A model generated the notes under the pieces. It was not told the origin of the DNA and searched no databases. It saw nothing but the letters and a program-made list of their open reading frames with translations. A program made the position numbers and the translations under genes. From an uncultured Pseudomonadota bacterium (GTDB lineage: Bacteria; Pseudomonadota; Alphaproteobacteria; UBA9219), in assembly GCA_903919315.1 (NCBI GenBank), contig CAIXHP010000020.1, forward strand, positions 55,247-119,246: a DNA stretch of 64,000 nucleotides. The letters are read 5' to 3'. This document shows positions 24,548 through 64,000 of the stretch, piece after piece (the first letter of the stretch is position 1; every line of letters starts with the position of its first letter).

Positions 24548-24928
24548 TTATTTCTTGGTGGCAATCTTCTTGCCAGCGATCGGCTTCGCCGGACCCTTGC
24601 GAGTACGCGCGTTCGTGTGGGTGCGTTGGCCATGCACAGGCAGGCCCTTGCGATGACGCAGCCCGCGATAGCAGCCCAAATCCATCAGGCGCTTGATGTT
24701 CATGGAAACTTCGCGGCGCAGATCGCCCTCGACCTTGTAATTCTTGTCAATGTCCTCGCGGATGCGGAGGAGTTCAGATTCGGTCAGCTGGTTGACCCGC
24801 TTTTCGGGGGCCAGACCGGTACGTTCGCAGATTTCCTGCGAATTTGCCGGGCCAATGCCATAAATGTAACGCAACGCAATGTGCAGCGGCTTTCCCGCCG
24901 GAATGTTGACGCCTGCAATACGGGCCAC
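24548..24928 (-). CDS. rpsM: 30S ribosomal protein S13
   Basis: 126 residues starting at a GTG (24928): [19 protein letters not shown]. The track uses a TTG nine codons upstream, but AAGGAG lies six bases before the GTG and the protein then begins as S13 normally does. The remainder, [15 protein letters not shown] and [21 protein letters not shown], is standard. S13 contacts the P-site tRNA and the B1 intersubunit bridges. It is the first gene of the alpha-type unit and has its own promoter about 215 nt upstream. Confidence 0.96.
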
Positions 24929-25149
24929 GAGGCTCTCCTTCGTTGTTAGCCGCAACGCTCCGGTGCTTGGCGCGACCGTGCTGCGACGTTTGTTTTCGCC
25001 ACGAACTCACCCCATTTCCCGCCAACACAAAAACCACCCGGCTCCCCGAAAGGGCATCCGCGGCGGTCCAATTGGCTGTCTTGAGGGCCGAAACCCCAAA
25101 CACAAGACACAAACAGGGGCTCAGCCCCCTGTCTGGAGCCGAGGAGCGC

Positions 25150-60632: not shown

Positions 60633-60700
60633 AACGGAAGTCCTTCAATGGGAGGCGACATTAAGGTGTGGCCGTGGCTCCTCATCATGGTTACCAATGC

Positions 60701-60715
60701 TTAAAAATTCCTTAT
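60701..60715 (-). promoter_or_regulatory. Weak CtrA-like box upstream of cheA
   Basis: The minus strand reads ATAAGGAATTTTTAA, one mismatch from TTAA-N7-TTAA, about 70 bp before the cheA ATG. It is much weaker than the site before the chemoreceptor gene. Confidence 0.25.
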
Positions 60716-60772
60716 GGAGCCCCCCCTACCCGCGTATTCGCCCTCGTCCGAAGTGAAAGACTAAAAATCCAA

Positions 60773-60802
60773 TTGACAACGCGCCCGGCGGTTTGTTGTT
60801 AT
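60773..60802 (+). promoter_or_regulatory. Putative promoter of the metA leader
   Basis: TTGACA (60773-60778) is followed after 18 bp by TGTTAT (60797-60802); TATATA lies slightly further on. It would start transcription about 25 nt before the riboswitch aptamer. Confidence 0.5.
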
Positions 60803-60831
60803 ATACGGACGGGAACGGTCCACCCTGACGG

Positions 60832-60886
60832 ACTCGCGGAATTTGATGGGGCAGCTTGCTGCCGCGTAAACAATAGCTAAAGCGCT
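60832..60886 (+). ncRNA. SAM-II-type riboswitch aptamer upstream of metA
   Basis: The segment CGCGGAATTTGAT...CTTGCTGCCGCG TAAACAATAGCTAAAGCGC fits the SAM-II (metA) motif. P1 is CGCGG/CCGCG (60835-60839, 60862-60866), the conserved ATTTGA follows P1, TAAACAA follows the 3' arm, and GCTAAA precedes a tail. GCTT in the loop can pair with AAGC in the tail, as the family pseudoknot requires, with an added GC step on each side. SAM-II switches lower metA/metX expression when SAM is high. The distance to metA is unusually long, about 610 nt. The match was made by eye. Confidence 0.78.
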
Positions 60887-61060
60887 ACAGCCTTGGGCAT
60901 ACGTGATCCCCTTGTGTTTAAAGGGGTCGGCTTCCGACCCCGTCACGCGCTGTAGTCCCCCCTCTGGCATCAGGTTTCATGCGCCTGAGTCCGAAGGAGA
61001 AAGGTGGGCGGCACGCGCGTTGACAGGGAAACTACGCCATAAATCCCCCTATCACCGCGC
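60885..61060 (+). other. Structured leader region of unknown type
   Basis: CTACAG (60885) can pair with CTGTAG near 60950. Inside it are CGTGA/TCACG and two mutually exclusive stems that share GGGG: CCCCTT/AAGGGG and GGGGTCGG/CCGACCCC. A second arm (CCCCCC...GGTGGG with CAGG/CCTG inside) follows. It is not coding in any convincing frame. The rest of the leader to 61231 holds GGTGACG/CGTCACC and CGGCTGG/CCAGCCG stems, the last followed by GGGGGCCTTTTT, a possible terminator. Confidence 0.4.
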
Positions 61061-61231
61061 CGCGCCCTCCATCGGGTGACGTTTCGGCGCGTGAACGGTC
61101 TTTTGACCCTCTCCCGCACCCTTTGTCGTCACCGGACGGCTGGCGTTACCCAGCCGCCGAGGGGGCCTTTTTCCCGCGCCCATACAAAACGGGAAAATCG
61201 AGCAGACCATCGCAGGATGGCAGGGAGGATC

Positions 61232-61408
61232 ATGATGACGAAATTATATCTTCAAGAAGACTGGGTAAGACGAATTGGTGAGTCGAACAAACGAAAGGAG
61301 GAAATCCTTCAAGCGATAGATGCATGGCAAGCTAGACGGCCTTCGTCGCCTCAAGGCCAGACGGCTGAGACTGGGACAAACATCGCTGCCCCACCAGAGC
61401 CCAAGTAA
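61232..61408 (+). CDS. Small ORF in the metA leader (58 aa)
   Basis: Starts MMTKLYLQEDWVRRIGES with AGGGAGGATC just before the double ATG, a very good ribosome binding site. A helical first half is followed by a Pro/Ser/Gln-rich tail ending APPEPK. It is not rich in methionine, so it is not an obvious attenuation peptide. It is co-directional with metA, 87 bp upstream. No family recognised. Confidence 0.5.
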   Translation: MMTKLYLQEDWVRRIGESNKRKEEILQAIDAWQARRPSSPQGQTAETGTNIAAPPEPK

Positions 61409-61416
61409 CAACACAC

Positions 61417-61449
61417 TTCGCCTCCGGCGTACATCGCGCCGGAGGCGAA
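61417..61449 (+). other. Stem-loop between the small ORF and metA
   Basis: A perfect 13-bp inverted repeat TTCGCCTCCGGCG / CGCCGGAGGCGAA with a 7-nt loop, ending 46 bp before metA. No T-tract follows, so it is more likely a processing or attenuation element than a full terminator. Confidence 0.6.
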
Positions 61450-61495
61450 TTCATACCGCCCGACGCCGTACGCGACGACGTCCAAGGAGCCGACC

Positions 61496-62464
61496 ATGCC
61501 CGTGATCATCGACGGCAAAAAGCCGCATCCCTTTCTCCCCACGCGCGAAAGCCCCTCGGCCATCGACGCGCTGCGGGCGGAACGGCAGGACGTACGCCCC
61601 CTGCACATCGCCGTTCTCAACCTGATGGCGGACAAGCTCGGAACGGAAAAGGAACTGGCAGGCCCGTTGGGGCACACCCCCATCCAAGTCCACCTGACCT
61701 TTGTCGCCACGGACAGCTACATCCACGATCTGGACAACGGCTATGTCTCAAAACACACGGCCCCGGATCACATTCGCAGCTTCTACACGCCGTGGAGCCG
61801 CATCCGCGACGAGAAGTTCGACGGCCTGATCATCACCGGCATCAACGCTCGCCAGTTGGACATCACGACCGAAGCCATTTGGCCGCAAGTGCAAGCCATC
61901 CTCGATTGGTCGCGCACGAACGTGGTGTCGTGCCTGTTCCTGTGCTGGGGTGCGCAAGCGGCGCTGAAACACCTGCACAATATCGACCGCCACCGGTCGG
62001 AAAAGAAAAACCACGGAGTCTTTCCGCACCGTATCGCGTCCGATAAAACCAACCTGCTCTACGGCTTTCCTGACCGTTTTCCCATTCCGGTTTCGCGCTG
62101 GAACGAAATCCGCGCCGAAGACATCCACGCCCGGGCCAAAAGCCTCGAAGTCGCCGCCCTGTCCGACGAAGCGGGCGTAGGTGTCATCGTCGATCCCCGC
62201 CACCACGCCGACAGCGTCTCCCTCTACCCCCGCGATGTCTATGTCTTGGCTCATCCCGAATACGCCACCGCGACGCTCGGCAACGAATACCGCCGCGACA
62301 GCGCCAACAATCCCGCCACGCCGACCCCACGGCATTACTTCCCCGACGACAAACCCGACCAACCGCCCCTGAACACATGGCGGCACACAGCCATGATCTA
62401 CACAAACTGGGTCAACCTCCTCTACAAAGTCGCCCCCTACGACCGCGCCTCCATCGCCGGATAA
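61496..62464 (+). CDS. metA: Homoserine O-acyltransferase MetA
   Basis: 322 residues of the MetA (not MetX) family, acylating homoserine in methionine synthesis. Seen are LHIAVLNLMADKLGTE, PIQVHLTFVATDSY, the catalytic Cys region CLFLCWGAQAAL, and the HPEYATATLGNEYRRD segment with His and Glu. The start is preceded by AAGGAG. Whether it uses acetyl- or succinyl-CoA cannot be decided by family alone. It is controlled by the upstream SAM-II-type switch. Confidence 0.94.
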   Translation: MPVIIDGKKPHPFLPTRESPSAIDALRAERQDVRPLHIAVLNLMADKLGTEKELAGPLGHTPIQVHLTFVATDSYIHDLDNGYVSKHTAPDHIRSFYTPWSRIRDEKFDGLIITGINARQLDITTEAIWPQVQAILDWSRTNVVSCLFLCWGAQAALKHLHNIDRHRSEKKNHGVFPHRIASDKTNLLYGFPDRFPIPVSRWNEIRAEDIHARAKSLEVAALSDEAGVGVIVDPRHHADSVSLYPRDVYVLAHPEYATATLGNEYRRDSANNPATPTPRHYFPDDKPDQPPLNTWRHTAMIYTNWVNLLYKVAPYDRASIAG

Positions 62465-62569: not shown

Positions 62570-63590
62570 TGGATTCACGTTTGAAGTGCAACGGTTGAAC
62601 ACAGGTTGGAGAATACTTCTGCAGGGGTTTTGAAGCCAAGACATTTTCGTGGAGTGTTGTTGTGGCGATCGGCGATGGCTCTGAGGGCTTGGGGCGATAG
62701 GGAAGAAAGATCCATGCGGCGCGGCAAATCCTTTTGCAATCTGCCGTTCATGTTTTCGATGCCGCCTTTTTCCCAAGGATGATGTGGCCGGCAGAAAAAG
62801 GTTTTCAAGCCAAGGCTGTCACGCAATCTGTAGTGCTCGGCAAACTCTGTGCCGTTGTCCTGTGTCAGGGTTCTGCGCATCTGCGGATGAAGAGGCTTGA
62901 GCCAAGTTTTCAGTCGAGAAGCCGTCGTGGAAGCCTTGCGAGACGGCGGTTTACCGAGCCGTATGAAACGGGATTTCCGCTCTTGCGCAACCAGAATGGA
63001 TTGTCCATAGCGGCTGAAAAGGATGCAATCGGTTTCCCAGTGTCCCGGCTGTTTGCGTTTATGGATGAAAGAAGGTCTTTTCTCAATGGAAACGCGGTAT
63101 TTTATATGTTGAACCGGCGTGCCGCCTCGTTTTCCGAGACGGCCTCGACGATGCTTTTTTCGAGGCAACAAGCGATGCCAGTAATCCTTTTGGGCGCTGC
63201 GATGATAGGCGTAGCGATAAATGGATTCATAACTGACACTCATGGTAGGATGGTTTTGCGTCAGCCATGCTGAGATTTGTTCGGGCGACCATCCCATCGC
63301 AAGTTTGTTTCGCACGAGCCGTCGCAGTTTTGGTTGGCGCGCCATTTTAAAGCGCCCGTCCCATCGCCGCCGACGCTGGGTCAAGGCTTCGGCCCGTAAG
63401 GGATCATAGCCTTCTTTCCACCGCTTCGTTTTCTTGCTGTTTCGCTTCAATTCCCGACTTATTGTGCTGGGCTGACGGCCTAAAGCTTCGCCAATCCAGC
63501 GCAAGGATTTACCATTGGCATGCCAATGGTAAATCTTTACCCGTTCCTTTGCAGAAAGCTGGTTGTATTTGTTTCCCCTCGCAACACCGT
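62570..63590 (-). mobile_element. IS30-family insertion sequence (approximate limits)
   Basis: The transposase gene fills almost the whole element, about 1.0 kb. The left limit is set by the end of a REP palindrome just before the transposase stop. The right limit is where PyrD similarity ends, near codon 138 of that reading frame. I could not identify convincing terminal inverted repeats or a target duplication by eye, so limits are plus or minus about 20 bp. Confidence 0.65.
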
Positions 63591-63612
63591 TCCAAGCAAA
63601 ACAAATAATCAT
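62575..63612 (-). CDS. IS30-family transposase
   Basis: About 345 residues. An N-terminal helix-turn-helix ([15 protein letters not shown]... [14 protein letters not shown]), then the DDE core: GHWETDCI (first Asp), [13 protein letters not shown] (second Asp) and [14 protein letters not shown] (Glu). These are diagnostic of IS30. The ORF track carries it 60 residues further by reading into pyrD. The only in-frame ATG (63612) seems to lie in pyrD sequence, so the native start is unclear or the 5' end may be slightly truncated. Confidence 0.88.
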
Positions 63613-64000
63613 CAATCGTGTTTTGTTCCGAAGTCTTCGCGTTCTTCCCGATGCTGATCCCAAGCCCCCCCCGCCGCTGGGAAGCGCGAACGTTTTGAAC
63701 CAGCCAATCCACCCCCCGATTGTTAAAGCCAAAGCGGTTGATAAGGGCCTGATGCGCCACAAGCCGGAACATCCTCGGCCTTGGGTTCCCATCCTGAGGC
63801 AAGGGCGTTACGGTGCCGATTTCAAGAAAACCAAACCCCAAACTTGATAAGGCGTCGATAGAGTCGCCGTTCTTATCCAGCCCCGCTGCAAGACCGATCC
63901 GATTGGAGAACTTCAACCCCCACAACGTGACTTCGTCTTTGTGCGGAGGATAAAGCTTGCCGAGCATGCCCGTCTTATCCAGCAACCGCAGCGATGCCAT
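63586..64000 (-). pseudogene. pyrD: Dihydroorotate dehydrogenase fragment, truncated by the IS element
   Basis: The frame runs to the window edge, and the start is beyond it. It is the N-terminal part of class 2 Pyr[62 protein letters not shown] and GISIGKN. Similarity stops after DDYLFCLER, where IS30 sequence begins. The following catalytic half (NxSSPNT and the C-terminal FMN site) is absent on the other side of the element, which is metA-proximal DNA. So this copy should be inactive for pyrimidine synthesis. Confidence 0.85.

Follow-up and report, generated by a model that had tools for sequence, protein, structure and literature searches.

The element upstream of metA in the 64,000-nucleotide stretch of alphaproteobacterial DNA analysed here (the window) is a relative of the SAM-II riboswitch whose P2a helix forms across an inserted hairpin, P3, and not a canonical SAM-II. 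The core of P1, AUUUGA, GCUUGC and GCUAAA, the inserted P3 and the pairing of P2a with the strand that follows P3 emerge directly from the computations. This split pseudoknot, a widespread SAM-II build outside the Rfam cut-offs, is the main point of the analysis, and the original prediction of a SAM-II-type riboswitch before metA had missed it. It is quite probable that the riboswitch heads the mRNA of a small ORF58-metA operon, with P2a and P3 on one side and the alternative hairpin P4 on the other as the switch, and with metA as second gene.

A SAM-II core with its pseudoknot split by a hairpin

The core (60835-60891, plus strand; Table 1) lies 613 nt upstream of the metA ATG at 61496. It contains the P1 stem with AUUUG, GCUUGC and GCUAAA that marks SAM-II, and genes of methionine or SAM biosynthesis lie downstream, metA here and a wider regulon in relatives. 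The scores of the curated SAM-II models are below cut-off, at 20.8 bits for RF00521 (SAM_alpha; cut-off 36) and 24.4 bits for RF01726 (cut-off 44), and a covariance-model search of 60640-61510 with SAM-V (RF01826) up to E 10 gave no match. The core is nevertheless the top RF00521 place across the 2.4-Mb genome. Since these sub-cut-off matches coincide with the best RF00521 place and with a downstream metA (PF04204), the original observation holds: the aptamer of SAM-II type before metA, and the metA operon behind it, are real. What did not stand is a canonical SAM-II, because the pseudoknot is split by P3. A possible promoter precedes the core, and TTGAC boxes lie 5' of the element in relatives; the promoter scan of the window reported none for 60773..60802, because it has a strict -10 rule.

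Table 1. Features of the metA leader, with positions in the window.
Feature	Position	Strand	Basis
Possible promoter: TTGACA (60773-60778), 18 nt, TGTTAT (60797-60802)	60773..60802	+	read from sequence
Core, in order CGCGG-AAUUUGAUGGGGCA-GCUUGC-UG-CCGCG-UAAACAAUA-GCUAAAGC	60835-60883	+	
P1 5' strand, CGCGG	60835..60839	+	sequence and model match
AUUUGA, conserved, ligand pocket	60841..60846	+	invariant in 50 sequences of alignment A2
P2a 5' strand, GGGG, aptamer loop	60848..60851	+	helix covaries in relatives
P2b 5' strand, GCUUGC	60854..60859	+	
P1 3' strand, CCGCG	60862..60866	+	sequence and model match
P2b 3' strand, GCUAAAGC	60876..60883	+	
P3 (inserted hairpin), 5' arm CUACAGC	60885..60891	+	fold; covaries in relatives
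Stable hairpin within P3, GGGGUCGG-CUU-CCGACCCC	60923..60941	+	fold
P3, 3' arm GCUGUAG	60949..60955	+	fold and comparison
P2a 3' strand, within CCCCCC, register ambiguous	60957..60962	+	comparison with relatives
P4, alternative hairpin drawing on P2a 3' strand	60957..61009	+	fold and comparison
Hairpin inside P4, GGUUUCAU in loop, common to window and family f2	60970-60988	+	
SD-like AAGGAG inside P4	60994-60999	+	
Possible 12-codon upstream ORF (GTG..TAA), behind SD in P4	61004..61042	+	sequence only
Weak terminator-like site: GC hairpin, then GGGGGCCUUUUU	61137..61172	+	fold z -1.6
ORF58 (58 codons), first cistron, orphan	61232..61408	+	ORF list and searches
13-bp GC hairpin between ORF58 and metA, T-run on minus strand	61417..61449	.	
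metA, homoserine O-succinyl/acetyltransferase (PF04204)	61496..62464	+	Pfam/ORF list

In the window as in its relatives, a single G comes after GCUAAAGC; hairpin P3 is next, and the partner strand of the aptamer loop lies only beyond P3. In the canonical copies fetched here the 3' strand of P2 comes directly after GCUAAA (GCUAAA-AGGUCGG against the loop CCGACC), whereas the split build is defined here by a hairpin that begins 1-2 nt after GCUAAAGC; in the window this is CUACAGC/GCUGUAG (60885-60955, long at 71 nt), and only then does CCCC meet the GGGG of the loop (60848-60851 x 60957-60960), in a register that is ambiguous because the strand is a run of six C. The loop and strand pairs found in the window's own order are CAGG/CCUG, CAGA/UCUG, GGGC/GCCC and, in the window, GGGG/CCCC; other relatives have GGAGC/GCUCC, GAGC/GCUC, CCCGGC/GUCGGG and GGGAGC/GUUCCC. 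Across 50 aligned sequences, P2a, whose columns were not chosen by complementarity, is paired in 87.1% of cells as against 77.5% +- 1.6 in shuffles, none of 500 being as high, and its covariation score of 0.306 (0.157 in shuffles) drops when the partner strand is slid. P3 is paired in 99.7% of cells of the same 50 sequences and varies on both sides, a count that is biased because P3 positions were chosen by complementarity; P1 is uninformative, since the search pattern itself dictated it.

With neither the Rfam score nor the contiguous P2 of SAM-II, the window element is treated as a new variant, and a search of open-access literature found no SAM-II description in which a hairpin is inserted. 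RF00521 has in common with it P1, the AUUUG loop, the GCUUGC x GCUAAA helix (P2b), the position of the P2a 5' strand and the Met genes downstream, but places the P2a 3' strand directly after GCUAAA rather than after P3 and has two nucleotides more between P1 and GCUAAA. RF01726 (SAM-II long loops), described from Bacteroidetes and marine sequences (PMC2864571), shares the SAM-II core, but its model consensus has the tail right after GCUAAAgC, without P3. SAM-V and the tandem SAM-II/SAM-V of Pelagibacter resemble the element as SAM aptamers with a GCUAAA-like pseudoknot, but SAM-V has no match in the window.

Distribution and regulon of the split build

Model R1, restricted to the 58-nt core, found strong copies across most of the window's order, many of them before genes other than metA. 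For counts it was superseded by model R2, which comprises 50 sequences, the sole member from the window's order being L190 (the same sequence as L083 of that order). R2 scores 60.6 bits in the window (E 1.5e-12), where the next best place reaches 15.3 bits, as against at most 46 bits for canonical control copies. Because R2 at E <= 1e-4 also takes in some canonical copies, only matches of at least 55 bits were counted: by our own count these occur in 59 of the 386 sampled genomes of the class (76 at E <= 1e-4), and RF00521 is above cut-off in 173 of the 386. Among 299 genomes sampled over the phylum 14 match, all of them from Alphaproteobacteria. The exact core pattern is present in at least 117 stretches of the genome contig collection, under record titles that name Rhodospirillales, Acetobacteraceae, Kiloniellaceae, Xanthobacteraceae, Rhodoplanes and Rhodopseudomonas; a metA protein query for related loci in that collection found none. 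Two near-identical copies also lie on a contig titled as an Actinomycetota MAG (L099), through contamination or transfer.

The genes 3' of the split build at different loci are, by NCBIfam, O-succinylhomoserine sulfhydrylase (MetZ), MetY, CysG, MetN, MetQ, SsuA, SsuD and MetX, with metF by Pfam and metE, sulfite reductase and metA by sequence motif. In six other genomes of the window's family the same core precedes metA at 173 to 1142 nt (L011, L012, L016, L017, L018, L030), and in two genomes of a sister family it does so at 50 and 69 nt (L024, L027). One region of about 25 kb of sulfur genes (G404:C116:72000-98500; L228, L229) carries seven SAM-II-type elements on both strands, two of them canonical and found by Rfam, and five of split build that R2 found and Rfam missed. 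Indeed, none of 16 split-build loci reaches any of the Rfam SAM cut-offs, and since these cut-offs miss the build, the SAM-II regulon is underestimated. Very short ORFs follow the split-build switches of L142 and L154 (MTMCCRRPKRA, MSASCCCRPRP) and look like cysteine-rich leader peptides.

The leader, ORF58 and metA

The ligand, which we take to be SAM because the core is the SAM-II core and the genes are those of methionine and sulfur metabolism, would be bound by the split-pseudoknot aptamer, and the element likely works in a SAM-II-like manner. P2a would take up the C-run that otherwise joins P4 together with the SD-like AAGGAG, and the choice between P2a plus P3 and P4 would be the switch. 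P4 would cover this AAGGAG, perhaps ahead of a 12-codon ORF, though this last is speculative. metA would be controlled as the second gene of the transcript rather than by having its own start masked. The hairpin at 60970-60988, right after P2a, has a conserved loop GGUUUCAUnnGCC that is also found in L066, L067, L070, L073, L084 and L087 and, in two copies each, in L085 and L086; it may bind a protein or an RNA.

Much of the layout described in the original prediction is borne out. There is a structured region (z -3.5), the 58-codon ORF does stand behind a good SD (GGGAGG), and the hairpin before metA is real, with the reservation that the minus strand carries its T-run; the possible terminator, in contrast, proved weak, and an intrinsic terminator scan of the plus strand of the window found none. 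The arrangement is unusual, but its distance of about 610 nt is not special, since the first gene behind the switch varies among relatives and metA, 50-1142 nt away, is often the second. The contrast drawn there with SAM-II elements that normally sit close to the start codon and act on translation is weaker than stated, because many SAM-II carry terminators (PMC1273637, PMC2258182) and S. meliloti is known to control metA by a SAM-II that is likewise distant from the start codon (PMC9373788). The S. meliloti aptamer is canonical, however, and its pseudoknot includes the SD, which lies 74 nt from the start that is used.

ORF58 has no relative that we could find and no Pfam match. The first genes of relatives are metA, members of the L017/L081 family or members of a small-protein family (L011, L012, L018, L056, L068). 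The latter proteins are about 85-120 aa long with a motif RAIVDN, and the member in L011 has no Pfam match. The first genes of L017 and L081, which stand behind the switch in two families, encode about 300-330 aa, are 40% identical to each other and are by eye reminiscent of SAM-cleaving enzymes; Pfam, where the L017/L081 family is without a match, did not support an assignment of the L017 gene as SAM hydroxide adenosyltransferase. In family f1 an intrinsic terminator lies 3' of P2a. After it and before the first gene, f1 leaders carry a second conserved RNA block, GCCC-hairpin-AGGGCUnUGCCGU-CGCCUUUUU-AAGnGGCGG (L011, L012, L016, L018, L030, L053, L056, L061), for which an Rfam search of the relatives returned no family. 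Elsewhere in the window, just 3' of metA, a pyrD-like dihydroorotate dehydrogenase gene looks by eye as if it were broken by an IS30-like transposase (62575-63792 and 63509-64000, minus strand), and 24896-24990 on the minus strand matches RF00140, the Alpha operon ribosome binding site, at 43.7 bits.

Sign of the switch and alternative readings

Canonical SAM-II follows an OFF logic on ligand binding. In the relatives, the P2a strand is also used by an OFF hairpin, either P4 atop the f1 terminator or a helix over the SD. In secondary-structure energies, which ignore pseudoknots and kinetics, the probability that the SD is unpaired, over 78 leaders with a near SD, is 0.30 in the free leader and 0.51 once both P3 and P2a are in place; it rises in 44 leaders and falls in 4. 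Terminator-arm pairing in 17 f1-type leaders goes from 0.78 (free) to 0.71 with P2a taken, a small shift unless P3 is enforced as well (0.49), as against a rise from 0.72 to 0.92 in 12 canonical SAM_alpha leaders when P2a is taken. Because the ligand-like fold frees the SD and opposes terminators in relatives, the structure reads as ligand-ON, and the predicted ligand-bound fold would be the reverse of canonical SAM-II, though the regulon predicts repression. We put repression by SAM first, as regulon and physiology lead one to expect, and lean towards it with some reserve. An activated switch, in which P2a and P3 close and block a terminator or free a ribosome site in response to SAM or to a metabolite that signals sulfur need, is the less favoured reading but one the modelled structures keep in serious consideration; against it speak the genes metA, metY, metZ, metX, ssu and cysG, which should be repressed by SAM, and core nucleotides that are those of SAM-II. 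It is possible that P3 and P2 are mutually exclusive with ligand bound, that the ligand is other than SAM, or that the nearest-neighbour model misleads, blind as it is to pseudoknots and kinetics; each would be a way out of the conflict.

The same conflict counts against our main reading, since a ligand-like fold that opposes the OFF hairpins of relatives fits poorly with biosynthetic genes being repressed, as do the ambiguous register of P2a and the long P3 of the window. The other explanations fare worse. The suggestion that ORF58 is the direct target and that metA follows by translational coupling is consistent with the good SD of ORF58 and with a transcript order as in relatives, but is unlikely because metA has its own SD (AAGGAG, 6 nt before the ATG) and the 87-nt gap between the two contains the 13-bp hairpin; moreover, ORF58 is not conserved, and some 350 nt separate its ribosome site from GCUAAA. 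Termination, the other mode of control originally proposed, is distinctly unlikely at about 61172: a GC hairpin is followed by GGGGGCCUUUUU there, and f1 relatives do carry terminators after P2a, but the site is not conserved, is 210 nt away from the aptamer and is not a good candidate. An aptamer without function is very improbable, for although P2a falls in a low-complexity C-run and no expression platform is clear, core and P3 are intact, the structure of the leader is complex (z -3.5) and the P4-type hairpin is common to the window and f2. Barely credible is a canonical SAM-II with contiguous P2 that has merely diverged. Its sub-cut-off matches to RF00521 and RF01726 span the whole core, but RF00521 gives 20.8 bits here against 50-88 in canonical copies, and in relatives the loop covaries with the strand beyond P3 rather than with the tail. 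In canonical register the tail after GCUAAA pairs with the loop only with a mismatch (by eye GCUACA x UGGGGC, with one A-G mismatch), and this contiguous P2 was set aside for want of support from relatives.

A comparative study placed SAM_alpha only in Rhizobiales and Rhodobacterales, and nine genomes of Rhodospirillales had none (PMC4239095). It is this gap that the hairpin-split build fills; it occurs in many Alphaproteobacteria, at times beside canonical copies, showing that the ligand helix of a pseudoknot aptamer tolerates an inserted hairpin about 17 to 86 nt long. The split build also raises the question of an inverted switch polarity. More tentatively, and doubtful at present, it may constitute a separate riboswitch class with a SAM-II pocket and reversed logic, whose ligand, SAM in an unexpected role or a metabolite of sulfur need, would turn sulfur and methionine genes on; such a class, if it exists, would share its genome with canonical SAM-II off-switches and work alongside them.
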